Below are positions 39,331 to 60,060 of a stretch of DNA of 64,000 nt, piece by piece. Every line of letters starts with the position of its first letter. Position 1 is the stretch's first letter. A model generated the notes under the pieces. That model did not search any database, had not been told where the DNA came from, and was given only the letters and a program-made list of their open reading frames with translations. This stretch comes from Tetraselmis striata (lineage: Eukaryota; Chlorophyta; Chlorodendrophyceae; Chlorodendrales; Chlorodendraceae), in NCBI GenBank assembly GCA_006384855.1, contig VCJN01000708.1:372001-436000 (forward strand), in the 5' to 3' direction. The translations under genes and the position numbers were made by a program.

Positions 39331-39378
39331 GTCTAAATTAGGGTTTGGGGGCAGCAGTGGGATTGATGGCTAATATGA

Positions 39379-39415
39379 ATGCCGGTTGGTTCATTTGTGC
39401 CAAGTCGGGAAACCA
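39379..39415 (+). repeat. Left terminal inverted repeat (tentative)
   Basis: Pairs with the inverse of 58925-58960 over about 35 bp with mismatches. The strongest shared blocks are AATGCYGGTT, CATTTGT and CCAA. Confidence 0.5.
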
Positions 39416-39605
39416 ATTCCGTCCAAACTTGGACAAATCAAAGAAGTGAAGGAAACGGGATGGTTACAAGAAGGTTGCGCCGTCGGGGGCTGAAACTCCG
39501 TCCAAACTGGGACAAACATAAGGGCGAGGAGGACGTGATGGCTACAAGTAGTTTGTGCTGTTGGGGGCTGAAACTCCGTCAAAGCCGGGACAAAACATAT
39601 GAGCG
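39400..39605 (+). repeat. Subterminal repeats, left end
   Basis: Three copies of a roughly 75-bp unit carrying CCGTCCAAACTKGGACAAA or CGTCAAAGCCGGGACAAAA. The last two also share GATGGYTACAAG and GGGGCTGAAACTCCGTC. The right end has inverse TTGTCC/GGGACAAA phrases at about 58232, 58285 and 58924. Confidence 0.7.
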
Positions 39606-39625
39606 GCTAATTTTGCGGAATTGTA

Positions 39626-42600
39626 CTACATATCATCATCTTCGAGCACATAATCCCCTCGACGCTCCGCCGCCTCAAGTCTTCTCTTATCCGCCGCTTG
39701 GCGCTCTTCCCGCTCCTACCTCTTTCTCGGGCATTGGAAGGGGTAGACCCGGCCACTTCTCGAAGTCGTATGGGCGCAGTCTTTGAGTCTCGTCCCATGG
39801 CTTCTCTTTGAACCATGAGGTCATTCTGGACTTCATCCCCGCGATTTGCGTCTTCTGGTTGTCAATGAGGATCGTCTTCAAGTTATTGTTTGTGAACGAG
39901 TAGCTCGGATGCATATGGTCCCACCACACGGAAAAGGCCACATCGACCTAAAGGCGTGGCAAACCGCACAAGGCGTTAATTTCTTATATTGATTGCATTA
40001 TGTCACTCGCCCGGGTTGCACCCCTCACGCACCGCGGTTGTCCCGGTTCCGGCTGTGACGTCAACGATTGTTGTCCCGTTTGTTGCTGCCATCTTCAGGT
40101 GCTTGGCGAAGAAAGCGATATACTTTTGGTACTTGTTCACTGTCTGCCTGTTCTCATCCTTCCATTTCGCAGTGTCTTTGAAGTGACCCAGCAGAATTGA
40201 TGTAGAGAACATGGAAAGGCACAACCGGCTCAGCGAGTGATGATGAATACAAGCCGGCTACTTGCCACGAATCAAATCTCACCTTCGGGGATCATCAAAA
40301 CGGATGTTGTCAGCTATGATGCTTGGCGGGGCTTCCTGATGCAGAGGTAGTACTCAGCGTCGTGATGCAGAGAACTGCTCATCTTCATCCCGCAATCCTT
40401 GGCCCAAGTCAAGACGTGATAGATGAGGTCTTCAGCTTTGTTTTGTACGGCTGTGATTGCGGATCCAAGCTGCTGGTCCGAGAGGTGAATGAAGAAATGG
40501 CACCCATCAAGAGCAGTGTAGACGTCAGAATATTTAGCTAGGATATTCAACTGCCTGCGGGGAAAATAGGAAATTAGGTAAATGAAAGCACAGCCATCTA
40601 CGCACCCGGGTTGTGGGGGGTATCTTACCTGGCGAAAGCAAACACGTCGTCGAAGTCGTCCGTGCCCCACGCAGCATCCTTCGAGTCCCAGTTGTGCGAA
40701 CCAGCTCCGAAAAGCGCATCGGCAATGATGATTGTGGCCTTTCTCGTACGAACTGCCGACATGGCTTCTACGAAGAATTGTTTTGCCGCGGGAGCCTTGA
40801 AGTCCCCCTCCACAATGCAAGTCTTGCAAAGCTCCGTGTTCAACCAGACCCTATCATCCTTGTGGACCTCTTCGCCCTTGGGCATCACCGGAAGTTCCTC
40901 GGCCTGAGGTGTGTATTTGAAAACCGATTCGAGTTAAAAGCTCACAATGAAATTTCAGAAGACGACATTTGCGGTTGCACAAAATCTTACCTTCATCGAT
41001 ATCCATAGCTCATCATAACATTCGGAGCGGAAACCGCGATAAGCTCCGGGGCACATGCCAGAAGAGCAAACTCTGAGGAGAATGAGATGACCAAGTCCGG
41101 CATCTGATTCTTGATGCGATACGCCTCACTCCTTGTGTTGGTGTTGGTAGCGGCGATATGCTTTCGAACCGGTAGTGGTGTTAGATAATCGGCGGATTTC
41201 ATGCCCCCCCAACTCGCAGGAGGGGTCAGCAAGACCATCAAAGGACCGCAGCGATGAGCACCTTTGAACAACTCATGGAACTTTCTGGGGAAGCATGTTG
41301 GGCCGAGGTCATCAACCTTGGCTCGGAATTTGGTGATGGCGTGAGTCAAGGCGAGCGGCTGCTTGCTGGCCCTACACTTGGTCTTCCACATCCCAATCGA
41401 TGACGTGGTCCGAGAGATATTTCCCCGAGTTCCGGGCCGGTTCGTCTGGCGTCCGCAGTCGGATTGCCTCCCTGCCCTTCGCCGTGTCAATGGCATTCAT
41501 GACCTTGATGCTTGCTCGACGCAAGAGATCGCGAAACCTCCATGTCTCAATCATCGCGAGCTACTCCGCGTTGGTGTGCGCAACAGTCATGGGGTCTTTG
41601 TCGCCGGCATGCTTTATGTCATCCATCAAATCGTGGAGGTTCGGGGTCACATTGTGCTCCCCGTGGATGAGCGGTCCAGCCACCAAGTACACTTGGCCCA
41701 CATGAAGACCCGTGTTGTTGCTCTGCTTGGCAAGAGACGGCTCGTCAAGCCATGGCGTACCGGGGCCAAAGCCAGCATCCTTGGCCGGAAAACAAAACTT
41801 CAGTACGGAGAAAGGAATGATAGTATTCCATGTGATTGATAGACAATGGGGTAGGTCGCAACTTTCCTCCATGAGGGCGACTCGGAATTGAGCTCTATGT
41901 TTGCCAAAGCCGTACTTCTTGTTATCGAGGATTGCATTGATAGGCTTCCGAATTGTTTCGTAAACCTTGCTCACGACCTTCGGGGAAAGTTGCCTGCCGT
42001 AATTGAGACGCTCAAGACTAGCGACTTCATTCCGGTAGTGTGCGTAGAGCTCGTGTATTTTTTCGCAGGCTTCCCTCCATCCTCGAACCCCGAGCTTAAC
42101 ATGCCGGTAGGCTTCAAAAATCTACTCAAGTGGCTCAAAAACACTACGCAAAACAATTGAGTCAGAACCCCGCAGCATTATCAACAAGATACAATTTCAT
42201 CATGTAGGCAGCTAACCGTTGTGGGCGCGAGCAGGGCTCAATCAAATTTGAGAACTCGCTGCTCTTCTCAGCTTTGATGCCGATCTTCTCAAGTTCAACT
42301 TGAAGAACTTCGTCAGACTTCTTGAACTCGTTCACGACTCTAATTTGCGGAAGTGCCCTAAAGTCCGGACGAATTGCAGCTTGTTGGGCATACCCGCTCT
42401 CGAAACATCTTCGAAGCTTATGCACAAACAATCCGATTTCAAATATACCGAGTGATTATGTACCTCTGATGACAAACCGATTTTGTCCCGCTGATGACAG
42501 CCCGTTTTGTCCCGCTGATGACATACCGTTTCGTCCCGCTGATGACATGCCGTTTCGTCCCACTCAGGACGGAATGATTTCGTCCTGGTGATGACAGACC

Positions 42601-45600
42601 GTTTTGTCCCGCTGATGACAGACCGTTTCGTCCCACTGAGGACGGACCGACTTCGTCCCGCTGATGACAAAACATTATGTCTTGGTGATGACATACCGTT
42701 TCGTCCCATTGATGACATACCGTTTCGTCCCACTGATGACATACCTATTTCGTCGCGCTAATAACAGACCGTTTCGTCCCACTGATGACATAACGGTTTC
42801 GTCCCACTGATGACAGACCTATTTTCGTCCCACTGACGACAGAACGATTTTTGTCACACTTGATGACTATTTGGTCCCACGGTCAGCTTAGTAATAATGT
42901 GATAGATTTGGTCGCTCACAAGGAGTTTTTGCATGGACGTGTCTCATACAATGGTGTGACCCGCCTCGTTGAGCTTCATAGACATGTAGCGGCAGACTTC
43001 CGGCGAGAGACCGAGGTACATCTTGTCCGACGTGAAGCGGATGCCTTTGTTTGTTTCGTAGATTTCCGGATAGTTTTCCTTCTCCACGCGCTTCGCCTCC
43101 CGTCTGTGGCTGCCGTCGATGTTGGCTTGAAGCGCGCAGTGGGAGCCCAAAAAGTTGATGATGACGTCGATCTCTGGCTTGTAGGAACTTGCATCCGTCA
43201 ACCTCGGCTTTTCCCCGCCTTCGAATGCTGCGACTAGGTCCTTGAAGTTGGCCATGGTCGGAGCGAGGGGCTTTTACTCTCCGGAGAAAACTCCGTTCTT
43301 GCGAACTACCGGAAAGGACACTGAGAAATTCTCGGCGGATAGGGAAGGATTCTTCTGAATAACAAATGCAAAGGCATGTGAGTAAGTTGCATTGTGTATT
43401 AATTTGGTTTTGTTTACGCATTTGATCCGGATAGGTACAACAGGTCACGATAGGCTTTGCCTTGTAGCTTTGCGCCACCATATTGCAGTCTTGTAGCTTT
43501 ATTAGGGGAACGGAATTCAAATTCCGGCGGCGGAGCGACGAACTTATCGGATGGGAATAACCTGAAAATGTGAGGTAACCCCGTATCCTTGTCGGTGACG
43601 AGGTTGACTTTGTCGGCGTATAAGATGTTGATGTCGCCACCGTGAGATGTCTCCACCTCTAGATCAGCAATCTCGACTCTGAGGTGGCTGTAAGAGATCC
43701 ATGCGACGGCACCGGTGTTGCTAAAGCCATTCAAGGCCGGCGGGACGGCAAACGTATCGACGTATGGAAGCGCGTTCTCAAAATCGTTGTCAATGTTGGC
43801 CAAGTCATCGATGGTAATCGTACCATCCGCGAAACCTCTCCGCGCATGCGCCAGCACATTGCGCTCAACCAAAGTCCACGCGTAGTACGACTGGAACCGC
43901 GGTTGGAAGGAGAGTGGCGGGTGGATCGCGTGGAGTAGCAACCTCTCAAAGACGACTTCGATCCCGATCTCCTGGTGCAATCCCAAGCGATAAGGTTGCA
44001 GACAGATCTGCGGAAACATATGGGGATATTCATACTTATTGAGACACGATATTGATACACGAATTCAGAAACCTCAACTGTGTTACTCACCTACTAGCGT
44101 CCTCTTCCGTTATAGCCGACGTCCGTAATTTTTCCGAGGCACGCGAGAAGTGCCCCCTTCGGATCATCGAAAAATTCCTTGCCAGTCAGCAGGCTCGCCT
44201 TGTGCAATTCGATGTACAAATAGATATGTTTGTGAATACTCCAACCCCACGAAGTGAAGTCGCTGTAGCCCCCATCGTGCTCTTGAGATTCGTCGCTGTC
44301 GTCGAAGAAGTCGTTGAAAGAGGCGATTGTCATCAGCTTTGTCTTCCTCTCGGGTCCAGGAGTTCCGGTGATGTCGAGAGCTTGCTTGCGCTTCTCTGCC
44401 GCCCGTTGCCTCCGTTCTTCCTTTGTGCCGAAGACCTCTTCATCCGTGCACATACTGAGGAATTCAGGAACCCTTCTTCTCGAAGCCTCGGCAATAGGGG
44501 CTCGAGAACCAAAAGCTCCAGAATCGGATGCTTGCCCGGTAGTCGGCGCTGGAGTTTCGAGCTTGGGCTCCGGCTCAGCTTCAGGCTCAGGCTCAGGCTC
44601 GGGCTCCGGCTCGGGCTTACACTGTGAGATTCAGATGTGACGTAAATGTGCCCTACTGGTGACGAACGACGACATACGGGGACGATACGGGACGGACGAG
44701 GGACGTGGATTTCATACCCAGTAGCGACGACTATCGCGCGCGACCTGTAAAGTACTATATGAATTTCTCGTTTCCATAATTTCATCAAATTGATATGCGC
44801 ACGCGGGCTCGCGTGTCGCCCGCCGACGCGGAGCACCCGGGCTAAGTACAGGCGGATGTACGCACTCATTGCACATCGCCGCACATCGCTGACCGCACAT
44901 CGCTGACCGCTGACCCCGCGGTGTGCCGCGATGTGCGGCACGACGGGCGGAGGTGTGGGCGGATGTAGGTGGTACGGTAGGTGGTAGGCGGTAGGTGGTG
45001 TTCGTAGGTGCGCGTTTTAATGCAGCCGCCCTAACTGCTGATGATTGTGTAACGCCCCAGCACGCGCATGAAGTACGGGGTCGCCTCACGGTCACCGCCG
45101 CTCACCGTTGAATCAAGCGCGGACAGCCGCGCACTCGCATCTGTGTTGCCTGCCGGTGGTGGGTTACATCCACCCCAACTCTCAACCCCCCCCCCCCGCC
45201 CCCCGCGCGCGGCAGCAGGCATGCCGGCAAAGGGATGGATAGCGAGTGTGTCGAAGGATGGCGTGTACACATGCAAGCACTGCCACGGCATCGTGACGGG
45301 TAGTAGTGAAAGGACGGCGCGAGAGCGGCACTTCCGGAAATACCCGAACTGTAGCCACTCGTTGAAGCGTGCGGCTAAGTTGCGCCGCAAGGCCGCCTTA
45401 TCACAAGCAGCAGCAGCAGGGGCGGCAGCAGCAGCAGCAGCAACAGCAGCAACAAGCGCGGCAGCAGGAGTAGCTGCAGCCGTCGGAAACGGCCCGCCGG
45501 CGCCGGTCTCGGACGACGGCGGCTCGAAGGTGGACGATGTGATGGGCGTGGGGGAGGACCCCGTTGGCGAAGACGGTATGGACATCGACGCGCCTGCGTG

Positions 45601-48600
45601 GCCGCCGGCGGGCGTCGAACCCGCGATGAGGGCGTGATATGGAAAGGCGATCCCGGCGACTTCTACATGAAGGTCATCGCCAAGAAGTTCCGGGGAGTAT
45701 GGCACTACGGCGTGATAACCGGCGTCGTTACCGAGTGGGTGTTGGAGGACTACGGCGGGGCGACCCAGTGGCGCGCTGTTTTCGAGGACGGTGACATTGT
45801 GGACCTTCTGCGTTCAGAGGTGAGTGGGCCCGGCCTGCGTGCTGGTGGCACCACTCAACTGCGGTTGTATGGAATCACACGCACCCGCCCGGTCGGCGTG
45901 GCAGGTTGTGGAGGCTATGGCGGCTGCCCAGGAGCACCCCCCTGTGGATGCGGACGGGGAGGCTCGCTTGGTAACCGTCCATCAAGGCGATGACTTGTCC
46001 AGTGAATCACGCACCTTGCCCGGCGTGCGTTCAACACAACCCGGCTGGCGGAGGCCAAGCAGAACACTGGCTGCCATGGCGTGTGCCATGTGCATGTGGT
46101 CCTGGGCTATGTCAGCATGATCAACCTCTTCCCCCTCGCGCCGTTCCACCTGTTTTTTTTTGGCTTGGGAAGGGACTTCTGGAGGAAATTTGTCACCGTG
46201 CAGGGCCACATTGGATTCCGAGCTATGAAGCAGGAAGACCGGCGCCAGGCTTTAGTCCCGATACCCAGCAACTTTGAACGCGGGTTGCGCCCTTCGTTTG
46301 CAGTGTCCAAGAATCGAAAGGTAACCCCCCCCCCCCCCCCCCCCCGGGCGTGGGCGTGGGCGTGGGCGTGGGCGTGACGGCATTCCCCTCCATGAATGCA
46401 GGGTCAGGCAAGGTGACGGTGCAGTCCGGCTGGGTCATGGAGGACTGCTTGCACCACATGGAAACGTTTTCCATTCTTAACGCCGGTCCGCTGCTCGAGG
46501 AGGCCCGGGTGAAGGCGATCATGACCGAGAAGGAGCTTCGCGTCCCTAGGCGGTGCTTGGGCACATGTACAAGCGCATGCAAGGAGCTGCGTGGTTCGTC
46601 ACGCGGTGGGGGTTGCAGAATGTGGTGACGGAGGAGGACGGCCCCGAGCGCAAGGCGCAGGTGGACGCGCTCACTAGGGAGGGGAGGACTCGATACCCCG
46701 CGCGGCGCAAAGGCGCGGCGGCCGGGGCAGCGCGGCGCCAAGGCGCGGCGGCCGGGGCAGCGCGGCGCCAAGGCGCGGCGGCCGGGGCAGCGCGGCGCCA
46801 AGGCGCGGCGGCCGGGGCAGCGCGGCGCCAAGGCGCGGCGGCCGGGGCAGCGCGGCGCCAAGGCGCGGCGGCCGGGGCAGCGCGGCGCCAAGGCGCGGCG
46901 GCCGGGGCAGCGCGGCGCCAAGGCGCGGCGGCCGGGGCAGCGCGGCGCCAAGACAGCGCATACAGCGGAATCGGCGGAAAGGGATGCATTACAAGCTGTG
47001 GACGGCAGCCGCTGAAAACTATGCGGTCATGCCGCAACAACCCCAGCACTGGCTTCTGGATACCTCTGATCTGGCTGACGGCGGCGGGCTGCGGGATGCA
47101 GGGCCGCATGACTGAGGTGGCGGTGCTGGTGAGCCCGCAGAGTCTGCATGCGGCGGAGGCGGCGCAGCCGCATAGGCACTAGACAATGCTCTGAAGCGAG
47201 CCCCAATTGTCTGCCCAGCGCCTGCCCCAATGTAACGCACCAGCTTGACAGCAATTGGCAGCTCTTTTGCCCCCCCCCCTCCACCCCACAGACACACTAC
47301 CAATACCAGTTTCTCATCCCGGCGGGCAGTTGATGCGTATACCCAGGCTTGTGCGTACGCGGTGCGGGGGGGGGGGGGGGGGAATCACTATAGCTAAGCT
47401 AGTGATGTGAGATATGAGTGCAGCAACAGATATTGTGCAAGATATAATACGATGGCATGCAAGCGGGTCCCCGCTCTTCCACAATCATTGGCCCTGCTCC
47501 CTCTTGCCCCGCCCCCGGTGCCCTTTAGCTGCTCTCAGCATCCCGAGTGGGATGGGCGGGGCAGCGGTTGCTACCGAGTGAGGCGTAGCATCGTTTGCAG
47601 TGGCAACGCAGCCTTTCCGGTGTGACGCCGCCTGGATGTAACCCAGCAGTACGCGCAAAGTGCAAGTGCAAGCTGCTGATGGCGGGGATCCCGCGCGGGG
47701 GGGGGGGGGGGGGGCAGCGGCTGTGGGATAGGCGCGGCAGCGGTTGCTACAGAGTGAGGCGTCGCATTGTTTGCAGTAGCAACGCAGCCTTTCCGGTTGC
47801 ATAGTGTGACGCAGTCTGGATGTAACCCAGCAGTACGCGCAAAGTGCAAGTGTTACACGTCCGTGTGCCCCACCCAATGACATTGCGCCCGACCTCACTG
47901 ACGGCATGTCTCGCTCTCCTTCAGCTCCTGGGCCGTCCGCCGCCTCACCCTGCGCACCCTACCAGCCGCGCGTGCCTTCTCGGAAGCCTCACACACGGCG
48001 GCGCGAGTCGCGTCGTGGAACGCGTCCCTGACATGGCGGAACTCCGCCCTCTTCGTGGCCGTGGTCGGGCAGGGGACTGCCCGCTGATGGGTCGCCATGC
48101 ATGGGTACTTGGGGCCGCACAAAGCCGGGGTGCCGTCGCAGCAACACTCCCAGTCCGTCCGTTGGCCGCAGTCCACGCATGACGGGCGTCCGGCCAGGAC
48201 ACGCACATGATAGTGCATGTGGCCGCCTCCCGCCACTGCTCGTAGTGCTCCGGTCAACATGGCGACGAGCAAGTCGGCATGTCCCGCAGGTGGCTGCGGG
48301 GCGGGTGGCGCGAGCGCAGCCTCGCTCGCCTCGACAACCCCCTCAGCCCGATCAGTCGCCTCGACCACGGCCTCCTCTGCCTCCTGACGCGGCGCACCAG
48401 GCGCATCATCGTCGCCTGGCAGGGCGTCCCCCCCCGCAACGGCGCCGTCGGCGGTGGCCGACGCCGTCGTGGCGGGGTGTTGTGAGGAGGTGGCCCTAGA
48501 CATAGGTGGGGCCGGCACCGCCATGTGTTGCTCCACATGCGGTGCGGTTCCTGACGCGACAACTCCGTCGCACCAGTACCGGCGCCGGCACCCCATGCAC

Positions 48601-51600
48601 GCCTGCTGGGCTTACCACCAACCGGCATGTTTCCTTTGGGAGGCGGTTCATCCGCGTCGGAGGTGAGCGGCGGTGCCTGTGTGGGTGTGGATACTGCCCG
48701 GCCATTAGGGCTCCCGCCGCCTGTCGCTCCGCCGACCCACGCCGCGGCGTGTGCTGCGCCCCGCATAGTCGCCTCAAATATAATATACATGACGCGGGGA
48801 CGGGGGGGGATTCGTGCGTTTCGTATGTCGGCGGAAAGGCGTGCGAAGCTGCGGCTGGCGAAGGTGGTGGAAGTAAGCGTGGCGGCGTCGGCGGCGTATT
48901 ACCGTGCGTGCATGCGTGCGCAACCCCGCGGCAGCAAGCGCCGGACTCGGCGTGTGCCAGCGGCAGAGCTGCGAAGCCATGGACACGGTACGGGATGCCA
49001 AGTCTGGCTAAGCAACTGCCGAGGCTGGCGGCTTAACCCCCATGTCCGGCGGTTGAGGGACGGAAAGTGCGTAGAAGTTAATCGGGAAAGCGGGCATATA
49101 AGCCTGGCTGTGCTAGGTTCCTATTAAGTAATGGCGGTTTGTGCTAAGTAATTCTTAGGGGTAGACCATGCAGCGCAGGTAGGGGGCGGTATAAATGAGG
49201 CCGGGCACATATACTGCTCCACGAAACGACACTGTCGCACGTGTAGTTGAATAGACGCCCCCCCCCCCCCCCCCCGCCGGGTCGGCCCGCCGGGTCGGCC
49301 CGCCGACCCGCCACGGCATGTAGTATTTGTCATGCATCGCCGGGGTATGTGTGAGTGGATGCCCCGCCGCCACACCCCCCCCCCCCCCATTTACACTTGT
49401 GCACTCATAAAGTTTGGGCTGGTTTCGGAGCAATACATGTACGTATGTATATACATACAATGGAACGTAGGACCTGCGCGGAAAGAGGGGGGGGCTGGCG
49501 GAATGCGTTGGGGGTGCGTAGAGTAGCGTGTTGGTGAGATTCGGGGTGCATCGGACGCCGGATGCCCATCCACCCAGCGTAAAAGACGCCTACGTAATAC
49601 TCACACTATATATATTCACACGCAAATGTGTGAAAACCGGACATTCCGTGCCGGATGGGTGGGAATACGGCGTCCGATGCAGCCAAAACCCCAGCAACAC
49701 GCTATTCTGTGCACCGCCAATGCACTCCGCCAGCACCGCCTCATTCTCTGTCGATTTCGAAAACGCCTTCACATTACCCACCGCTAATTGCAATTGCCAC
49801 CGTGTAATGTTGTCACGATGTGCGCACACAACAACACTTACTACCGGTTCCGACGCGGATGGAGGCGAGGCTTGCGGAGTGCGTTGGGGGTGCGTAGAGT
49901 AGCGTGCTGCAAATAATTGGGGTGCATCGGACGCCGGATGCCCACCCACCCGGCGTAAAAGACGCGTAATATTCACACTTTATTAACACACAAATGTGTG
50001 AAAACCGGACATTCCGTGCCGGATGGGTGGGAATACGGCGTCCGATGCAGCCAAAACCCCAGCAACACGCTATTATGTGCACCGCCAATGCACTCCGCCA
50101 GCACCGCCACATTCTCTGTCGATTTCGAAAACGCCTTCACATTGTCCACCGCTAATTGCAATTGCCGTGTAATGTTGTCACGATGTGCGCACACAACAAC
50201 ACTTACTACCGGTTCCGACGCGGATGGAGGCGAGGCTTGCGGAGTGCGTTGGGGGTGCGTAGAGTAGCGTGCTGCAAATAATTGGGGTGCATCGGACGCC
50301 GGATGCCCATCCACCCGGCGTAAAAGACGCGTAATATTCACACTGCTTTATTAACACACAAATGTGTGAAAACCGGACATTCCGTGCCGGATGGGTGGGA
50401 ATACGGCGTCCGATGCAGCCAAAACCCCAGCAACACGCTATTCTGTGCACCGCCAATGCACTCCGCCAGCACCGCCTCATTCTCTGTCGATTTCGAAAAC
50501 GCCTTCACATTATCCACCGCTAATAATTGCAATTGCCACCGTGTAATGTTGTCACGATGTGCGCACACAACAACACTTACTACCGGTTCCGACGCGGATG
50601 GAGGCGAGGCTTGCGGAGTGCACTTGCGGTGCACAGACTAGCGGGAGACTAGACCCATTGTCGCTTATTTACAAGCACGGGCGGTGCTGCCAGACCTGAT
50701 CGTCTACGGCCGATATAATATTCACACTATATTAACATCGGTGCACACCGCCGCACACCGCCGCACACCGCCGCACACCGCTGCGCGCGCACATTCGTCG
50801 CACACATTATCCCGGATTCACTCGCCGTATCCATTACGCCGTGCTACTTCAACAATAAACATTGCGAAATTACACCGACACAATGCCGCACCGACTAGCT
50901 CTTGACAATACGTGCATATAAATAGTAGTGGCGCGCTGCTCCTCGCCTCCGATGTGTCGTTGACTGCTGCGGAAGGCGGTCGTCGACTGGGTGTTAGTTT
51001 CTCCACCTCGGCCGCCCCCCCCCCCCCCCCCCCCGCCCCCCCCCCCCCCTTCACCGCTCACAGCGCCATGGCCGACCTCGCCCCCCCGGGCAAAAGTGGG
51101 CGGCGAGCCTTGTTGTCTCGCGTGTCCGCGCCGCCGGCATCGAGGAGGACGAGAAAGACATGAGGAAACCCGTGACAAGGTGGGCGCGCAACAAAACACT
51201 CCATCCTCCGCATTAGCACGCACCCACTCGTGGCTAACTTGTGCCGCGCGCAGGTTCGTCCGGGAGCGCCGTAAGGCCCACCTCAACGCCAAGGCTTCCA
51301 CAGTGCCAGCGGCGCAACTCGTGGTGGCCGAGGAGGCCGCATCCTCAGCCGCTTAAAGGCGAAACGATTGTGGCTTGTTGTGGGTGTCTGGGCACAGGGG
51401 GCGTCCCGACGCCAAGGTAAGGAAGCTCATGGCGGCGTCGTCGACGGCACAGCCTCCCGGGGTGGTGAAGACACTGACGGATGACAAGAAGCGGAAGAGG
51501 CCAGTGAAGAAACGCCGAGGTAAGAAACTGACGGTCGCGGAGTCGGAGGCGCAGGCGGAGGCGGAGGCGGAGGCGGAGGCGGAGGCAGCGAGATCGTCGA

Positions 51601-54302
51601 AGCGGAGGGTCCCCCGGGCACGCAAGAACAAGAACAAGCAGTAGCCCCCGCCCCCTTTACCCCCCCCCCCCGCCCCCCCCCCAGGCGGGAGCGGCTGGCG
51701 GCGAGGGGGGGCGGGGGGGGGCGGGGCGGGCGTGGTCCCCCCGCCCCCGCACCCCCCCCCCCCCCCCCGGGCCACATCCCCCGATGGCAGCTGTCGCGAA
51801 TATTGTAATTCAATCATTCTTCGGCAAACCGCTGCCTGCCCCCGCCCTCCCCCTCGCGAATATTTATGTAACGTGAGCACTCTTTGGCAAAACATGGCAG
51901 CCAAACCGCCCATCTGATGACCTTTGATCGGACGGCTGGCAGGCCCGATCAGCAGTACTAGTACTCCAAATTCCCCAGTGTTACCAAGTACGTACGGCTG
52001 CGATTTGCGCTCCCATGTACTAATAGTCGTAGTTATCCACAGGACCACTCGTCATCGTCAGGGGGTTCGTACTGATACCCGGTACCGGCTTAATAAATGT
52101 ATCGCGTACTACCCGGTACCACCCGGTACCACCCGGTACTACACGGACAACCTCGCACCTTTACTTCAGTGCCATGTAGCACATCACACGTCATGTACGG
52201 CTACCAGAATGATGACAAAAAGGATTTATCGCCCGCCGGCAATAACGCCGGATGTACTCGCACGTAACTGGATGGACATGCCGCCACCAGCAGCAGCTTT
52301 CACGGATAATAGTGGTACCGGAACGGTAGTGCTTCGTCACCCGTATGTCACATCTGAATCTCACAGTGTTAGGCTCCGGTTCAAGCTCCAACCGAGTGGG
52401 CTCAATTTCAGGCTCATGCCCAGGCTCGGGCTCGGGCTCAAGCTCGGGCGCAGTGGGCTATGTTTCAGGCTCGGGCTCCGGCTCGGACACCCGCTGAGTG
52501 GGCTCAGTTTCAGGCTCGGGCTCAGGCTCCGGCTCGATGTCGATCGGTGGCTCTGTTTCCGGTACTTGAGGCGGCCCCTTAGACGAAGAAGAGCATGGAG
52601 TCGGGGAACCTGTAAAGAATGAGTAGAGAGTACTCAACACACATGCAGTGGGCATCACGATTAACTAATGAACGGTATCGCCATGCACAATCAAAGTCAG
52701 TCGTGATTTTCTTACCTGGGGATCCCGCTTTACCGGCTGCTTCCGACGCGGTTGCCTGCGCCAATTGACGGCATGTTGGATCTTCAAAAACTCAGAAATC
52801 TAAGGGATTGGGAAGGGAAGGATTGATACTTTCAGTCACAATTACGTGGAGTCACAATCGTCTCGGAAACCTGTTCTTTTCCCTTGGATTCTTGTGGAGC
52901 TTGAGGCGCTACTGGCTCATGTGCGCGTCCTTGCGAACCTGTCAAAACACATAATTTCAAACTATTCAGATATCACACTACACACACGAAAATCATATGA
53001 TTGGAGAGGCAAGGACCTAATTGATAGTAAGCTTGCATGAGCTTATCGTAATCGATCAGCCTTCGCGATGCCTGCATTTGAGCATATGAGAGGACTTGGC
53101 CGCTCGTGATTCGGGCCCTCAAAAGAGCGGCGGCCGATCTTGCTCCTTGCGAGTGCGTGCCGTAAGCCGGCACTCTACCTCCTAAAAGGCTCGGTTTCCA
53201 TGGGTTACCTGATGCTTTAGCGCCCGCTCTAGCTGCAGAAGCTGAGGCTGCACGGCTCTTCTTCGCCGCCGGCTGCTCGGGCACAAAAGATGACGCCTTG
53301 TGTTTTCTCCCGACTAGCGCTCCGAGCGCATCAAACTCTTTTGTTTTCTCAGTAGGTTTTGATGTCCGCTTGGACCTTCGACCTATTAACATCACATTCT
53401 GTCAGTCCTTTTCGTCCCGCTGTTACATACCGTTTTCGTCCCACTGATGACAGACCGTTTCGTCCCGCTGATGACAGACCGATTTTCGTCCCACTGATGA
53501 CATACCGATTTTCGTCCCGCTCATGACGGAACGAATTTCGTCCCACTGATGATAGACCGATTTTGTCCCGCTAATGACAGTCCGATTTTCGTCCCACTGA
53601 TCACATAACGATTTTTGTCCCACGGATGACAAACCGATTTCGTCCCGTTGATGACAAACCGGTTTCGTCCCACTGATGACATACCGGTTTTCGTCCCGCT
53701 GATGAAACAACGATTTTCGTCCCACTGATGACGTACCGATTTCGTCCCTTTGATGATAGACCGTTTCGTCCCACTGATGACAGAACGCGTTTCGTCCCGA
53801 TGATGACATACCGGTTTTCGTCCCGCTGATGACAGACCGTTTCGTCCCGCTGATGCAAGGATTATTTCCAATAATTAAGTACTGCTGTTTAATATTGTTT
53901 TGTCTTTAACTACTGCGCTTGACACTAATATTAAACCACTCATGATGGCGGAGTACGGGTACAAGGTTCATCTGGCCGCCCTCCACCCCCCACCCCCCGT
54001 CCACCACCAATAAGCATCCTTACTGATCATGCCACGGCGGCCTCGACGGGACGTAATACTACCGTGCAGGACCATGATACCGCTCGTCTCGTTTGGGTTT
54101 GTATTCCGACTAGTCTGCCTATCCACCTCGAACGGTCCTAGATTACACCGCTTCTAGTGGGAACCCTAACCGAACTCGCTAGATCCGGCCGCATCACGCG
54201 TCGAACATGCACGCAGCTACTGTACGCGCGCGCAACTCACTTGGGGTGGCGTAGTCCTTGTCTTCCTTGTCCTTGGCAGGCTCGTTCTTCTTCGGCGCCA
54301 TT
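39626..54302 (-). CDS. DNA N4/N6 methyltransferase-like protein of the transposon
   Basis: Multi-exon gene read right to left. Start MAPKKNEPAKDKEDKDYATP (54302); a basic exon at 53385-52990 (RSKRTSKPTEKTKEFDALGA); a Pro/Glu repeat (EPEPEPEPE) at about 52560-52370 and 44620-44560; MCTDEEVFGTKEERRQR (44453); ERLLLHAIHPPLSFQPRFQS (43950); MANFKDLVAAFEGGEKPRL (43255); KVYETIRKPINAILDNKKYG (41970); WRFRDLLRRASIKVMNAID (41530). The methylase part comes last: IIIADALFGAGSHNWDSKD (40790, motif IV place), GCHFFIHLSDQQL, HVLTWAKDCG, HDAEYYLCIRKP (40330), then TTIVDVTAGTGTTA (40060, motif I), and an acidic end DYVLEDDDM. IV before I is the beta-class order. Probably methylates DNA bases, but IV reads DALF, not DPPY. 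TAG codons near 52470, 42090 and 41560 interrupt it. Split by the CACTA-like insertion. Confidence 0.6.
42466..42870 (-). repeat. Satellite array 1, in a methyltransferase intron
   Basis: About 16 units of 24-27 bp of the type CGTCCCACTGATGACATAC plus CGTTT/CGATTTT. Lies between the exons at 43255-42944 and 42431-42162. Confidence 0.9.
44620..44641 (+). repeat. Left terminal inverted repeat of the CACTA-like element
   Basis: Identical over 22 bp to the inverse of 52347-52368; preceded by TTA. Confidence 0.92.
44870..44945. repeat. Subterminal repeats of the CACTA-like element, left
   Basis: GCACATCGC recurs three times (with TGACCG spacers) and once inverted as GCGATGTGC. The right end has GCACACCGC four times at 50742-50792. 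CACTA elements usually carry such arrays as transposase-binding sites. Confidence 0.55.
45221..47182 (+). CDS. CACTA-like transposase gene with zinc finger and Tudor-like module
   Basis: ATG 45221 opens a BED-like finger (YTCKHCHGIVTGSSERTARE, then H and C about 5 residues apart), followed by an Ala/Gln-rich and an acidic stretch. One frame later, WKGDPGDFYMKVIAKKFRGV, HYGVITGVV and WRAVFEDGDIVDLL resemble a Tudor/agenet-like chromatin-reader fold. After a donor at the end of LLRSE (near 45821), exons carry VVEAMAAAQEHPPVDADGEA and VSMINLFPLAPFHLFFFGLG plus RDFWRKF, a pattern like Tnp2-type CACTA transposases, then SGWVMEDCLHHMETFSI. The last part runs into a coding minisatellite. The frame change near 45620 may be an intron or a mutation. 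It probably recognises and moves the element; the assignment to Tnp2 rests on short similarity. Confidence 0.5.
46707..46952 (+). repeat. 30-bp coding minisatellite
   Basis: About eight nearly perfect copies of a 30-bp unit (GGGGCAGCGCGGCGCCAAGG, then CGCGGCGGCC), encoding AARRQGAAAG repeats in the transposase-gene frame. The opposite frames give long artefact peptides. Confidence 0.95.
47555..47855. repeat. Direct duplication, about 115 bp
   Basis: 47561-47672 and 47738-47852 share GCAGCGGTTGCTAC, GAGTGAGGCGT, GCAACGCAGCCTTTCCGG, GGATGTAACCCAGCAGTACG and CGCAAAGTGCAAGTG, separated by a poly(G) run. Confidence 0.85.
47895..48596 (-). CDS. Cys-rich zinc-ribbon-like protein in the CACTA-like element
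   Basis: 233-residue open frame. The N-terminal half is Ala/Glu/Pro-rich and acidic (RQEAEEAVVEATDRAEGVVE). The C-terminal half has HYHVRVLAGRPSCVDCGQRT, then WECCCDGTPALCGPKYPCMA and TH, an arrangement of CxxC, CxxxC and CxxxxH pairs like the zinc-binding tail of piggyBac-type and related transposases. It ends in a basic segment (RAAGRVRRVRRRTAQEL). It lies opposite to the transposase gene and could be a second, accessory element protein. No known function; the clear Cys pattern and intact frame argue for a real gene. Confidence 0.5.
   Translation of the reverse strand: MGCRRRYWCDGVVASGTAPHVEQHMAVPAPPMSRATSSQHPATTASATADGAVAGGDALPGDDDAPGAPRQEAEEAVVEATDRAEGVVEASEAALAPPAPQPPAGHADLLVAMLTGALRAVAGGGHMHYHVRVLAGRPSCVDCGQRTDWECCCDGTPALCGPKYPCMATHQRAVPCPTTATKRAEFRHVRDAFHDATRAAVCEASEKARAAGRVRRVRRRTAQELKESETCRQ
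48790..49127 (+). CDS. Small basic protein of unknown role
   Basis: From ATG 48790, MTRGRGGIRAFRMSAERRAK, then LRLAKVVEVSVAASAAYYRA and a Lys/Arg-rich middle, about 112 residues. An AT-rich TATAATATA motif stands just before the start. No family recognised; support is weak. Confidence 0.3.
49540..50640. repeat. Three tandem copies of a 368-bp unit
   Basis: Landmarks recur at 368-369 bp: TGTGTGAAAACCGGACATTC at about 49627, 49996 and 50364, and GTTGTCACGATGTGCGCACA in each copy. The units differ by few bases and small gaps (for example ATTACCCACC, ATTGTCCACC, ATTATCCACC). Each contains TCTGTCGATTTCGAAAACGC. Open frames inside are repeat-derived. Confidence 0.93.
51069..51647 (+). CDS. Small Lys/Arg- and Glu-Ala-rich protein, probably spliced
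   Basis: Pieces in sequence: MADLAPPGKSGRRALLSRVS (51069), then RFVRERRKAHLNAKASTVPA (51250), then GRPDAKVRKLMAASSTAQPP through KKRKRPVKKRRGKK (bipartite nuclear-signal-like) and an EAEAEAEAEA repeat, ending in a basic tail and TAG at 51645. Introns between the pieces are likely but not proved. It may be the DNA-binding accessory protein of the CACTA-like element; this is a guess from its composition and place. Confidence 0.35.
52347..52368 (-). repeat. Right terminal inverted repeat of the CACTA-like element
   Basis: Ends CTGAATCTCACAGTG, followed by the TTA duplication. Confidence 0.92.
53400..53860 (-). repeat. Satellite array 2, in the first methyltransferase intron
   Basis: About 17 units of the same 24-27 bp repeat as array 1 (CGTCCCACTGATGACATACC plus GATTTT). 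It sits between the start-codon exon (ending near 54240) and the exon beginning near 53385. Confidence 0.9.
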
Positions 54303-54930
54303 CTGGCGGTAGGTTGGTTGACACGGTAGATGAGCGGGTTTCTGGGTGGGTAGCGGTGAGGGAGATAGAGGTGGAAATGACCTGGTCTCCGTCTGCCGCC
54401 GCTCTGACCCCTGATGGACTAACGGCGCGCGTGCGCACACTATAGTGCACCTCGTCGTCGTCATATATAAGGTTAATGTATTTTGCACCGCAACGAATAT
54501 ACATGGCAAACTACTCCGACTATATATTACTATTACTGGTAGATAATATATTCCCTACTCGAGAGTCATAACGGTACGAGAGTACAGTAGCGTGGCAAAA
54601 ATATTCCTTTATGGGATGATATATTCCTTGGATTGGATTCGGGTGTACATACTTGTAAAGAACTATTTACGTAATACGAAAGAAATACGAAATAACACGG
54701 AAATATTTTGTGTTGTACGATATACATAACCTTATCTGTACGGCATCATGTATTCTGGCTCATTACCGATCTTGTGTTTTTAGTCATCAGGTTCATTTAT
54801 TTTGACCCGTAGTTGGATATTATGCACCCCGGTCAACGGCCCGTCCGAGAACGGTCATCGGCTGTCACCCTTCCTCGCCACATATCACAGTCCTTCACCG
54901 CCCCGCCGACCATTCGCCCCACGCTGCAGC
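53865..54930. promoter_or_regulatory. Divergent promoter region of the DNA transposon
   Basis: Holds only the first methyltransferase exon (to 54302) and AT-rich sequence with several TATA-like motifs (TATATATAA near 54468 and TATATATTA near 54520) between the two divergent start codons. The plus-strand frames at 54802-55013 are short and may be 5' leader. Confidence 0.4.
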
Positions 54931-57900
54931 ATGGTCTCTTCTCCAGGATCCGGCACGTCGGACACTACAGTTACAGTACCGCCGTGTTCGTGCCGCAGCG
55001 GGTAATCGTGTGATTGCGACGCGCGTGTTAGTGATCGTAAGGAGGTTGAGAAAAGAAAGTACACATGGGGCAAGGGTTCCGATGAGGTCGCCGACAGCGA
55101 GACTGGCAAGGGCTCGTCTCTGATCAGCAAGCGCACCTCTTGGGACTACATCCGCATCATGCTCGCCAAGGAGGCTAGCGAGCAGTCGCCGTGCTGTTCG
55201 CGAAAGTGCGTGCACAAGGTGTACACTCAGTGTGGAGAGGCCCTTGTTGGTGCCGTGATGGACCGTGCGTTGACCGTATACTATGGCAATCGGAACCGCT
55301 CCTCTGACCGGCTCGCTCAGGTTCTCAGGGGTGGCTACGACTCGTAACAGTTCGACTACATGTTTGATCACGGTGGCTACTTGGGCTCTTTCGATCATCG
55401 AGGCCCCATCTACACGTGCGGGCGTGCATGGGAGGTCTTGCATCATGTCTCGAAACGAAGACGTCTCGTGATCCAGCGGTCGGTGGTGGATAATGTACCC
55501 ACGTACATCAGGCAGCGAAAGCAGTACGAGAGCAGACAAACCGGACCGAGGGAGCATGTGCGCATGTTTCTCGAGCACTTCTTCTCAGATGACCTCGGTC
55601 ACGTCGAGATCATGCCTTTTCACGACGGCAACAGCGAGACCTTCAAGAAGCACCTACCTCCCTGGATGACCAAGATTTGCGTCTACTACTTTTACAAGTC
55701 GTGGGCTGAGGACGACAACGCCATTCTCCGTGGTAAGTAAGGCCCAAACTGTGCAGTTGATGACATAACGATTTTCGTCCCGCTGATGACAGACCGATTT
55801 CGCCCCGCTGATGACAGAACGTTTCGTCCCGCTAATGACAAACCGTTTCGTCCCACTGATGACAGACCGATTTCGTCCCGTTGATGCCGGAACGTTTCGT
55901 CCCACTGATGACAGACGGTAAAACCTGATAACAAAACGTTTCGCCCCGCTGATGACACACTTTTACGTCCCACTAAGGACATACCGATTTCGTCCCACTG
56001 CTGACATAAGGTTTTGTCCCACTGATGACAGACGGTTTTGTCCCGCTAATGACATATATGCCGTTTTGTCCCACTGATGACCAATCGTTTCGTCCAACTG
56101 ATGACATACCTATTTCGTACCGCTGATGACAAACCGATTGTTTTCCCACCCATGACATACCGTTTTGTCCCACTGAGGACAAGCCGATTTCGTCCCGCTG
56201 ATGATATATCGGTTCTGTCCCGCTAATGAAATACCGATTTCATCGCCCTGATGAGAGACCTTTTTGTCTCTCCGATTACTAAATTGTCGTCCCGCTGATA
56301 CATCCATGTTTTCTCGCTGATGATATAAGTTTTCGTCTTGCTTGGTACGGACATGTTTCGTGAAGCTCGTGACGGGACCGCTGATGGTAGAAATCGTGAT
56401 GAGACTAGTTTGCCCCGTTGATGACATATCGTTTTCGTGTATTGACAGAACTAGTTCATCCCACTATCGATATAATTATTTCGACCCCATGTAGACCGAA
56501 CATTTTTGTCTCACATCATGACACCTAATTTGTCCCTGCTTTGTATACCGACCTATTCTGCCCCTACCGCTTTATAGATTTGGCTGCCGAGAGCGAAGTG
56601 AAGCTCGCGTCGTTCGACACTTTCCGCCGGACTTGGAAGGAAGATTTCCCGGATGTCACCACGCCAAAGGTGAAGCGATTCAGCCATTGTCCCATTTGCG
56701 CGGCGGGCAAAGCGCTCAGAGACCAAGCTCGCGAGGTTTGCACAAAGGACATGACGCTCGAGGAACGTCAAGTGCACCGTCAACATCAACAACTCGTGAG
56801 GTGCCAAGTCGGAGCCGAGCAAGAGGTCCACCTCGAGAGAGTGCGCCAGGAACGAAGGGATCTGAACAACGCCGTCTTCCAATCGCGCCTTGGCCGTGGA
56901 AACTTCTTCTTCTTCGAAATTGATAGCATGGACTACTCCGCGAAGACCATGTAGCCTCACTGGGTTCGCATCCCCAAGACTGTGAAGCCCGACATGCTCC
57001 TCAAATACCACCTCACATGTGTGAAGAACGACGGCTACCGCCCGGACGACATCTACTACTACACCAACACCATACCCCATGATTCGTCCACGAATTGCAC
57101 TTTGATATGGATGACGATCATGAAGGTGAGCTCGTTGACTGTTGTCCTCCCGACAGATTCGCCGTCGTTGTCCAATAGCCGTGGTCTGATGAAATCCGAT
57201 CTCCGATGCAGGAAATTCAACTCGGTGGTCGAAATTCCGTGCATCAGAATTTAGATGGACAACACCGTCAGGGAGAACAAGAATAGGAACGGGGCGGCCC
57301 TATACAATTGGCTTGTGTCTATCGGCATCTGTGACGTCATTCATTTGGTCTTCCTACCTGTCGGGAACACTCATGAACGGGCTGACCAGATCCTCAGCCG
57401 CATCAGTCTTGCACTATCTCGCAGCTCCGCCTCCACAGTCGAGGCCTTTCTTGACTTGGTGGCGAAGGCATTCTCGCCCACTCCGGAGATTGCTGAGCTC
57501 TCATTCTCCTTCGACTTCTCTGGGTGGTTAAGGCCCCATTTCCAAGACCACATTCAGGACATCAGTAAGCCGCACAAATTCGAATTCACCCGTGACGACG
57601 CCGCCGCGTCTGGCGGCTCGTTGCGCACCGCCTTGTGGTCCAACACACCGCTTTCTGAGCCCGTGCAGATCTTGAAGAGCGCGCCAACTGGGACGCCCGA
57701 GATTCGTGCGGGCCGGCCCCTTTTGTACGCTCTCTGCGACAAAAAGAAGCCCGACGCGGTGAAGGTCCAGGGGTACTTGGATGCCTTCAAGAAGGTCAGG
57801 TCGTACATCACGGACCTGGCGGTCCAGTGGCACTTCTCCCCAGTCGAGCACGAGAGCTGGAAGAATCTGCTCGACGACTTGGATGAGATACAAACTGCTC

Positions 57901-58855
57901 CTTTGGCAGCTTTCTCGGGGTTCCGGCCACACCGGAAAGAGAAAGTTGACGACTTCTTGGCGAGCACGGGCATACCGCGCTCGCTGAGGCACGTCACACG
58001 ATGGCTACCAACGCCGACCTCAACAATGCCGAAGCCGCCCGCGTTGAAGCCGAGGTTTGTGCTCAAGTGCTTCGTGCTCAAGTGCTTTAAGATGTCAGCG
58101 CCTTCCAGGGAGTTCACGCCGCGCCGGCGCCAAAGAGAGGCTTCATGACAACACAAAACCCAGCGATGCAAAGGGCACGAACCTCGTTGTCATTGACGTC
58201 TCCGATGCGAGTCCCATTGTTTGTCATTCTTGTCCTTTACGGGACAAAACAATTTGGTTAATCTACCTTGCTTGTTATTTTGTCCCAACTTGGACAAAAA
58301 TGGTGGGGCGTCTCGCTCGGGACTGACATAGCTCGCGGTCTTGGCCATCATTAGGTGCATGAGGAAGACAAGTGCCATGAAACTCTTGGTGATTGGGAGT
58401 CGAGATTCGTCATCGGGCTTGTGAAGTCGCGCGAGACTACCGAAGACACGTTGACCGTGGCCGTATACGAGCCCTTCCATGCCGATGCAAAGATGGTTGT
58501 ACGCGCAGATAAAAGGAGGGAAGAAGCCAGTTGACACAAGCTGGGAGAAGTGTCTGACGCTTCCTTGGAAGCTTGTTGAAGCCGCCCCCCTATCGTACGC
58601 GAAGACCATCCACGAGCGTCGGGAAGTCGCGAGGTGTTCCACGAGGACGGCACCATGGTCAGAAAGAAGTGGTACAGTAAAAGCGTCGAAATCGTGAAGA
58701 CATATGCGCAAACTGGGTGGCAAATCAGCCAGCCACGAAACAACTGCGTCCACGTCATGTCAACCACCCCAGCGCAACGCAAACCCGGCGGAGTCGTCAG
58801 TTTTAACGCAGCCACGAAGAAGGACTTGCTTGAGTTGGGGATGCTCAACGAGTAA
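54931..58855 (+). CDS. DUF7869-type transposase-like protein of the transposon
   Basis: ATG 54931 (MVSSPGSGTSDTTVTVPPCS), a 39-bp intron, then EVEKRKYTWGKGSDEVADSE. The N-terminal region has CCSRKCVHKV and the block IYTCGRAWEVLHHVSKRRRL, usual before the core in this family. An intron (55737 to about 56570) filled with satellite follows. Then FDTFRRTWKEDFPDV, FSHCPICAAG (zinc pair), FFFFEIDSMDYSAKTM, and the core: MDNTVRENKNRNGAALYNWL, LVFLPVGNTHERADQILSRI. The D/N...H/E pattern looks like an RNase H-fold nuclease core. A C-terminal exon (WYSKSVEIVKTYAQTGWQIS, LLELGMLNE) ends near 58855. TAA/TAG codons interrupt it at about 55346, 56953 and 57253, each where Gln is plausible. Presumed to move the element. 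Confidence 0.65.
55755..56540 (+). repeat. Satellite array 3, in a transposase intron
   Basis: Same repeat type as arrays 1 and 2; regular to about 56260, then increasingly diverged up to the next exon. The intron donor is GTAAG at 55735. Confidence 0.88.
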
Positions 58856-58924
58856 ACTAATAGCAACGTCTTGTGGCTAGGCGGTGGATTTAATCATCAT
58901 CATGAATATTGATTTGCCTCATCT

Positions 58925-58960
58925 TGTCCCATTTTGGACAAATGCTCCAAAACCAGCATT
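58925..58960 (-). repeat. Right terminal inverted repeat (tentative)
   Basis: Inverse partner of 39379-39415, ending CCAAAACCAGCATT. Confidence 0.5.
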
Positions 58961-60060
58961 GCATATGCGTCGCGGCTGGCATGCACGCTGATGAATGTTG
59001 CACTGCACCCCAGGTCTACAAACCCAAGCTACACAACCCGTGAGTCTTAAGTACTGATAGTAGCCCCGGGAACTAGGATATAGCCAAACCCTACGGTGCA
59101 AAATGAATTCCACGGTGCAAAACAGGTTGAATTACTGTTCAAAGTTGTACCAGTAAAGGACCCTTTGTTGGCGTTGGGGCGGGGTGCCACCCCGGCCGCA
59201 GAGGCGGCGCAAGCGTCGAACCCCGCGCCCATCCCTGTTGGGCAGTAGCGCGAGTGTATTGTAAAAGTTTTATTTTTGGAGAGTCTGGGCTACACTCGAT
59301 TAAGATGTAATAAACACAATACATTACAGTGTTTTCTCGAAGTGGCCCCTGCCGCATAGTAGCTTTAGCCGGTCTGAGATGCCGGCTCTAGCTTCATCGA
59401 TATTAAGTCTTATCGAAGAGCAGCCAATAGCTTAGACCTGACTTCTACTCCACTAGATTAATTCGCGTTGGGCGAGGTGGGCGGGAGCAATTAAAAAGCC
59501 GGAACTGAGTCGGATCTTGCAGACCTCCTAACTATTTGTAGTGGGATACCCGAGGCTCCTACAACCCCCGCGGCCCACTACACCCTGACCTAGTGTCACT
59601 TGACCTTCCTCTTCCGTCACTCCTGCGGATGTGAGCCCGTTGGAGGGCAACGCTTCTTCAGCTGTCGCATCAGCTGTCGGGAGACGATACCATAATTAGT
59701 TAAAGTATTTGTAAAGTCGCCAGTAAAACGGAGAGCGCGCGACGCGCGCGGCCGTGCCGCCCCTGCCAAAACATTATTTCGCCGCCACTTTCACCGCAGC
59801 TCCGAAGTCGATGGAACATAATTTCTTGGAGTGGCTGGACCACACTCAATTGAGATGAAAACACAACAATACATCACAGTGTTTGCTCGAAGTGGCCCGT
59901 GTCGCACAGTAGTTTTAGCCAGTCTGAGGTGCCGGCTCTAGCTACTTCATCGATATTCAGTATTATCGAAGAGCAGCAAATAGCTTAGACCTGACTCCCA
60001 ACAGACCCCACGCACAAATTTTCTGGTAACGCCGTAGATAACGGCGCCCGTTTTAATACC
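58961..60060. repeat. Intergenic segment with a direct repeat pair
   Basis: 59280-59450 and 59828-59998 are about 170 bp and highly similar: CTCGAAGTGGCCC, GCCGGCTCTAGCT, CTTCATCGATATT, CTTATCGAAGAGCAGC/ATTATCGAAGAGCAGC, AATAGCTTAGACCTGACT. About 380 bp lie between them. No coding sequence is seen; a small terminal-repeat (TRIM-like) element is possible. Confidence 0.65.

Follow-up and report, generated by a model that had tools for sequence, protein, structure and literature searches.

A 64 kb stretch of one contig (hereafter the window) from the 224 Mb assembly of the green alga Tetraselmis striata (Chlorodendrophyceae), which comprises 2,903 contigs, contains a decayed copy of a DNA transposon in which a gene for a DUF7869 transposase (gene A) lies divergent from a gene for a methyltransferase-like protein (gene B). 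Such an element had been proposed in a preliminary description made from the letters of the window alone, and is supported by defined ends, 4 bp target duplications, the joint occurrence of the two genes in two families and matches to Pfam profiles. We slightly favour reading it as a two-gene cut-and-paste element, moved by its DUF7869 transposase, in which gene B would bind, and probably methylate, the element's own DNA, so setting the timing of transposase action or of silencing; in this reading the chemistry of the transposase, the ancestry of gene B, methylation, its target sites and its purpose are the parts that we infer.

Ends, genes and copies of the element

Alignment of the window copy with nine others, an approach suggested at the outset, placed the borders at 39280 and 59139. 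The interval first marked, 39379..58960, had located the element correctly and fell short of its ends by 99 and 179 bases respectively. The principal features are as follows.

39280..59139, no strand: whole element (window copy, decayed); borders from alignment with nine other copies and from the inverted ends
39280..39309, + strand: left terminal inverted repeat, reading AACAGTTATGCAACCTATTTTGCACCGAGG
59110..59139, - strand: right terminal inverted repeat, from alignment of copies
54927..58855, + strand: gene A, DUF7869 transposase; predicted exons 54927-54956, 54999-55732, 56578-57125, 57179-58206 and 58355-58855
57179..58206, + strand: core exon of gene A, with MDNTVRENKN and GHTHERVDQ (GNTHERADQ in the window copy)
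39626..54301, - strand: gene B; exons predicted, mapped from the C363 copy; broken by a nested element and by stops
40606..40903, - strand: gene B exon with motif IV (IADALFG)
40283..40554, - strand: gene B exon with motifs V-VIII (GCHFFIHLSDQQ, LTWAKD, EYYL); start inferred from an in-frame GT-AG intron
40033..40210, - strand: gene B exon with motif X (KYQK) and motif I (TTIVDVTAGTGTT)
39626..39947, - strand: last exon of gene B, with motif II (ILIDNQ) and the C-terminal tail

The terminal inverted repeats are imperfect and about 30 bp long; in the aligned copies AACAGT opens the left end and ACTGTT closes the right, and the borders are constant where the flanks are unlike one another. Counting the window copy, the left border was found in nine of ten copies (the left end of C1496 is disrupted) and the right border likewise in nine (that of C1531 lies outside the compared piece). 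A perfect 4 bp target duplication surrounds four of the eight copies in which both ends were read: ATGT at C363 and at C1721, AAAT at C2772 and ACCC at C1562. Inverted repeats at fixed borders and a target duplication of fixed length are the marks of a cut-and-paste DNA transposon, and the arrangement originally described, two divergent genes between imperfect inverted ends, was borne out, with the signatures in place and the ends aligned. The C363 copy spans 12,455 bp; without its nested element the window copy measures about 12.1 kb, and the two are 88.8% identical over 11,792 columns, the nested element again being excluded.

The core of gene A contains VRENKNR at 57267 (+) and GNTHERADQ at 57363 (+), both where they had been placed, the latter proving to be a decayed form of GHTHERVDQ, which is found in the C363 copy and in gene model P0067. 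Gene A scores 128.4 bits against the PF25273 DUF7869 profile (cut-off 26). The predicted structure of its core resembles mariner transposases and retroviral integrases and contains the RNase H-like fold expected of a DDE/D transposase; secondary structure gives plausible positions to candidate catalytic acids, namely the D of EIDSMD, the D of QMDN and the acids of GHTHERVDQ. On this model gene A probably encodes an RNase H-fold DDE/D transposase with the corresponding chemistry. Further PF25273 proteins occur in T. striata, Acanthaster, Mercenaria and metagenomes, and those of Acanthaster and Mercenaria (P0141 and P0143) suggest that this transposase family is also present in animals.

Gene B begins MAPKKNE and ends in DYVIED with an acidic tail (in models P0001 and P0005 as well as in our own prediction); its N-terminal regions have no convincing Pfam match, and the methyltransferase-like domain is C-terminal. 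The motifs of this domain, named by eye, run IADALFG, GCHFFIHLSDQQ, LTWAKD, EYYLYVRKP, KYQKPIAL, TTIVDVTAGTGTT and ILIDNQ, with TTIVDVTAGT at 40074 (-). This is the permuted beta-class order (IV-VIII, then X-I), and the beta-class motifs claimed for the gene are thus present, with an altered motif IV. The exon carrying GCHFFIHLSDQQ is skipped in gene models P0001, P0003, P0005 and P0017. In all five of the other copies examined for it (C363 and L092-L095) an in-frame GT-AG intron of 47-53 bp bounds this exon at one and the same position, with a second acceptor in L092; in the window copy the upstream exon has a stop, and only a different, 74 bp GT-AG intron is possible before motif V. With the inferred exon included, the domain scores 30.7-31.2 bits against Pfam N6_N4_Mtase (PF01555; cut-off 26.7). 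Of the two profile searches that had been recommended, the one for DUF7869 thus succeeded outright and, in the first family, the one for the methylase only with this exon.

The best solved relatives of the domain are MboIIA (E 2.7e-4), RsrI (0.0023), DpnA (0.011) and CcrM (0.068), matched chiefly through motifs X-I. The PHROG 67 DNA methyltransferase profile matches both families (36.9 and 38 bits), and NCBIfam gives only a weak match to CcrM (19.9 bits, against 830). When profiles were compared with those of two ordinary methyltransferases from the same assembly, no more than 62 columns, around motifs X-I-II, could be aligned. When the C-terminal part from another copy was compared with protein databases, 81 matches were found with the best 7,999 candidates scored: 80 are Tetstr1 gene models and one is from JGI, P0001 having 87% identity over the full query and others up to 96% over parts of it. 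The strings HRREA and NHRRAA suggested by eye a ParB-like domain midway along gene B, which was rejected, as a Pfam search to E 10 detected none. Elsewhere in the assembly, the N6_N4_Mtase matches L039, L040 and L042 have the commoner motifs DPPY, DVPY and DLPY, and some of this type may be bacterial contamination or viral genes.

Joint occurrence of the two genes in two families

Whole-genome profile searches, in which the best 150 of 548 candidates for DUF7869 and the best 150 of 259 for N6_N4_Mtase were scored, yielded 104 methyltransferase matches, of which 59 were assigned to the family of the window copy by their interrupted frame and list position, a rule that missed at least one member (C501). 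A listed DUF7869 match lies within 13 kb of 33 of the 104, all of them among these 59 and all in the same divergent order, 18 pairs being spaced 9.4-10.0 kb apart; at five more the distance is 13 to 30 kb, three of these pairs being divergent and two not. A DNA search with the methyltransferase part (best 40 of 403 candidates), whose list shares two copies with the profile list, gave 17 pairings within 13 kb, 15 of them in the standard order. In the genome annotation, 15 of the 50 DUF7869 models of the family are within two gene numbers of one of 78 methyltransferase-like models; random gene numbers gave a mean of 0.33 and a maximum of 4 in 2,000 trials.

A second high-copy N6_N4_Mtase group has DSNY at motif IV; it is found among L044-L068 and at C2208:330626-355047, of which L089-L091 hold part. 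Its transposase is approximately 35% identical to that of the first family, and the methyltransferase-like domains, with their motifs aligned, are 30% identical; the scores are 90.7 bits for PF25273 and 36.4-38 bits for PF01555. With one place per copy selected manually among 115 and 75 rows, the resulting 45 methyltransferase-like and 54 transposase places formed 15 pairs within 30 kb, 14 of which are divergent. Of its three database matches, TSEL_020998 adjoins TSEL_020997 and TSEL_043279 is two from TSEL_043277 (both partners being DUF7869 proteins, about 35% identical); the third, TSEL_027403, has no listed DUF7869 neighbour. The terminus of this family on the methyltransferase side, read inwards, is AACATTGATTC; beyond it, the loci that were read have unrelated flanking DNA. 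The possibility that the two genes never travel together, named in the preliminary description as fatal to its proposal, was contradicted by all three counts of pairs; the other such condition, that the borders lie elsewhere, did not hold either, beyond the small shift given above. Since both diverged families carry the same arrangement, the gene pair would either predate their split or have been assembled twice. A second-family transposase match also lies at C363:41633-43057, about 1 kb past the right end of the first-family copy there.

Both genes are under purifying selection. Between the window and C363 copies the ratio of nonsynonymous to synonymous substitution (dN/dS) is 0.26 for gene A (0.20-0.36, 911 codons), 0.50 for gene B (0.39-0.64, 973 codons) and 0.36 for the methyltransferase-like domain (0.20-0.60, 239 codons), values that should overstate those of functioning copies because the window copy has five stops in each gene and, in the parts compared, 12 gapped codons in gene A and 14 in gene B. 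For the DUF7869 exon, comparison of the window with 30 copies gave 0.35-0.51 in 29 and 0.72 in L014. In the second family, the methyltransferase-like exon compared with L050 gave 0.30-0.37 (L061, L065, L066 and L067), 0.45-0.46 (L045 and L068), 0.55 (L064), and 1.23 and 1.26 (L044 and L063), the remaining copies having three or fewer differing sites.

Subterminal repeats, minisatellites and a nested insertion

Repeats shared by the subterminal regions had also been claimed, and are real, though few: a dyad-like 17-mer, GTCCAAACTGGGACAAA, has three sites in the first 330 bp at the left and two in the last 0.9 kb at the right. Allowing up to three mismatches, it has seven matches in the window, all within the element, one of which (56164) is in a minisatellite. 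The repeats and the nested insertion are listed here.

39418..39605, no strand: left subterminal tandem repeat of 78 bp, 2.4 units, with three dyad-like motifs (39421, 39500 and 39578)
58279..58298, no strand: dyad-like motif of the right side, within the last predicted intron of gene A
58923..58939, - strand: dyad-like motif of the right side
42466..42843, no strand: 24 bp minisatellite between predicted exons of gene B
53409..53855, no strand: 24 bp minisatellite in another predicted intron of gene B
55758..56268, no strand: 24 bp minisatellite between predicted exons of gene A
44620..52368, no strand: nested, younger, high-copy CACTA-like element, separate from the two-gene element; identified by inverted ends, duplication and junctions

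With three mismatches allowed, the minisatellite unit has 45 matches in the window, every one of them inside the element. When it was treated as a degenerate dyad-like motif, the best of five sites was equalled by 7 of 4,000 mononucleotide shuffles and each of the remaining four by between 96 and 320 of them, which is suggestive only of the intron minisatellites deriving from the subterminal motif. The second family carries a different minisatellite of its own on C2208.

The interval had been described as a single element, which holds for its outer parts; the middle, 44620-52368, is a separate insertion inside gene B of the window copy. It has 22 bp inverted ends, CACTGTGAGATTCAGATGTGAC (beginning CACTGTGAGA), a TTA target duplication and nearly identical copies elsewhere in the assembly (best 40 of 1,310 first-look candidates scored), and its ends also make junctions in L022 and L074. 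CACT ends and a 3 bp duplication, which are traits of the CACTA/EnSpm group, suggest that it belongs there; eight of its reading frames were compared with Pfam, and none had a convincing match. At L074 one end of another copy adjoins the C1146 copy of the two-gene element, and frames resembling those of the nested element lie just upstream of the predicted second-family gene B on C2208 (L091). Elsewhere in the window than the element, at 61942-62256 (-), is a frame with HIPGKHNGLADSLSR, which resembles the RNase H part of a retroelement.

Possible roles of gene B and related systems

In the mechanism we favour, the gene A transposase would recognise the AACAGT ends, cut, and insert the element with a 4 bp duplication. 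The gene B domain, a beta-class (permuted) amino-methyltransferase-like domain of putatively bacterial or phage ancestry, would act on the DNA of the element, either through methylation (the favoured option, at adenine N6 or cytosine N4) or through binding alone, its candidate sites being the minisatellite arrays between predicted exons of both genes and the dyad-like motif that recurs close to each end; this action may then set when the transposase or host silencing can reach the element. A more ambitious version can be put forward only tentatively: that DUF7869 marks a superfamily of eukaryotic DNA transposons that has yet to be named, and that one of its branches would have captured a bacterial-type amino-methyltransferase before the two families diverged, retaining it as an active enzyme that writes 6mA or 4mC onto the element's own DNA and forming a selfish epigenetic system in competition with host silencing.

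Several results weigh against these proposals. The 4 bp duplication is absent from four of the eight two-ended copies (the window, C809, C1146 and C2669), and departures from the standard order were seen in a second-family pair at C2618 and in two pairings of the DNA search (C2114 and a second DUF7869 row at C2206). Motif IV, which reads DALF in the first family and DSNY in the second, departs from (D/N/S)PP(Y/F/W), for which reason we term gene B methyltransferase-like: DALF is found in all six copies compared and in seven of nine gene models, the other two being without that stretch. The bdelloid protein N4CMT becomes inactive when Ser and Tyr in its SPPY are replaced (excerpts of PMC8885841); here the corresponding acidic and aromatic residues are retained and both prolines are gone. 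Without the inferred exon the PF01555 score falls to 26.1, just below the cut-off, and the Pfam and Protein Data Bank matches lean mainly on motifs V-X-I, the motif IV stretch contributing only 6.7 bits to the match with MboIIA. The structure model of gene B has a mean pLDDT of 29.2, too low for its fold to be read. Finally, the young pair L094/C363 differs by one silent and 21 replacement changes, a pattern which would fit decay after insertion.

That gene B has lost methylation, and now serves the transposase as a DNA- or cofactor-binding accessory, is a possibility to which we give some credence while thinking it doubtful; TnpA of En/Spm and the Myb-like protein of Harbinger are comparable second DNA-binding proteins of two-gene transposons. 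The loss of both motif IV prolines in both families points this way, as does the dN/dS of the motif IV exon, which at 0.62 (0.30-1.46) is indistinguishable from 1; the subterminal motif and the intron minisatellites could be binding sites, and purifying selection is possible without catalysis. Against this, both families, at only 30% identity, retain the motif I glycines (DVTAGTGTT and DVTCGTGTT), the KP of motif X and the acid and the aromatic residue at either end of motif IV, and the lowest dN/dS values of gene B fall in the next two domain exons, 0.25 for motifs V-VIII and 0.23 for motifs X-I, with intervals overlapping those of other exons. We think it unlikely that gene B is an active methyltransferase aimed mainly at the host genome or at incoming DNA, remodelling host chromatin or giving its bearer a selective advantage, and not at the element: with so many copies, any activity would extend across the genome, and retrotransposon-borne DNA methyltransferases (DNMTs) accompany an unusual host methylome in Symbiodinium (excerpts of PMC5890265), but nothing in the analysis ties gene B to host loci.

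Tetraselmis hosts polinton-like viruses. Chloroviruses are rich in methyltransferases (excerpts of PMC7248222), yet derivation of the element from an integrated virus, or membership of one, appears very improbable, given that the gene finder places a single gene per strand in the C363 copy, that neither has a capsid-like Pfam match, and that a scan of viral contigs with the methyltransferase-like domains gave 88 pattern stretches and no confirmed relatives. It is harder still to credit that genes A and B are neighbours by accident, or that a host methyltransferase merely sits beside transposons. Of the 59 first-family methyltransferase-like rows, 26 have no listed DUF7869 within 13 kb, the DUF7869 list being incomplete; even so, chance adjacency is in effect ruled out by the common borders with differing flanks, the single order of all listed close pairs and the recurrence of the pair in the second family.

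Among known systems, fungal DNA transposons with TET/JBP genes (KDZ, hAT, EnSpm, Plavaka and others) likewise pair, in several lineages, the transposase with an enzyme that modifies DNA, but that enzyme is a dioxygenase oxidising 5-methylcytosine, the transposase here is DUF7869, and the duplications of KDZ elements are 8 bp (Zisupton) and 7 bp (Kyakuja) rather than 4 bp (excerpts of PMC12730594). Virus-borne mariners are also DNA transposons with a transposase and a methyltransferase gene; they differ in their TA duplication, extra endonuclease gene, Cyt_C5 or Methyltransf_26 domain and large-virus carriers (PMC3627910). The DNMT retrotransposons of Symbiodinium and charophytes and the Dam-like methylases of DIRS elements, the latter of adenine type, resemble the present case in bringing their own DNA methyltransferase, whereas they have no DDE transposase and belong to other methyltransferase classes (excerpts of PMC5890265). 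The bdelloid N4CMT is, like gene B, a eukaryotic protein with a bacterial permuted N6_N4_Mtase domain; it is described as a host gene with SPPY and a chromodomain, and is a proven maker of 4mC (excerpts of PMC8885841). The PF25273 proteins outside T. striata share the transposase family, judged on the proteins. Sola elements make 4 bp duplications. In passages on Sola (excerpts of PMC4455052 and PMC10294476) no duplication length or sequence signature was found. No literature on DUF7869 by name was found, and the literature searched, which covered few subscription papers, reports neither a DUF7869 element nor an N6_N4_Mtase-type gene in a eukaryotic DNA transposon.

Mobile elements bearing DNA-modifying enzymes are few, and each tests the contest between parasite and host for epigenetic control. 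In this one alga a prokaryote-type amino-methyltransferase-like gene is tied to a transposase in two diverged high-copy families, and DUF7869, a Pfam domain of unknown function found in animals too, gains a likely function as a DDE transposase. Because two distantly related families keep the same gene arrangement, these comparisons suggest that the element brings its own tool for marking or binding DNA; whether a transposon writes its own DNA mark is here directly testable by long-read sequencing.

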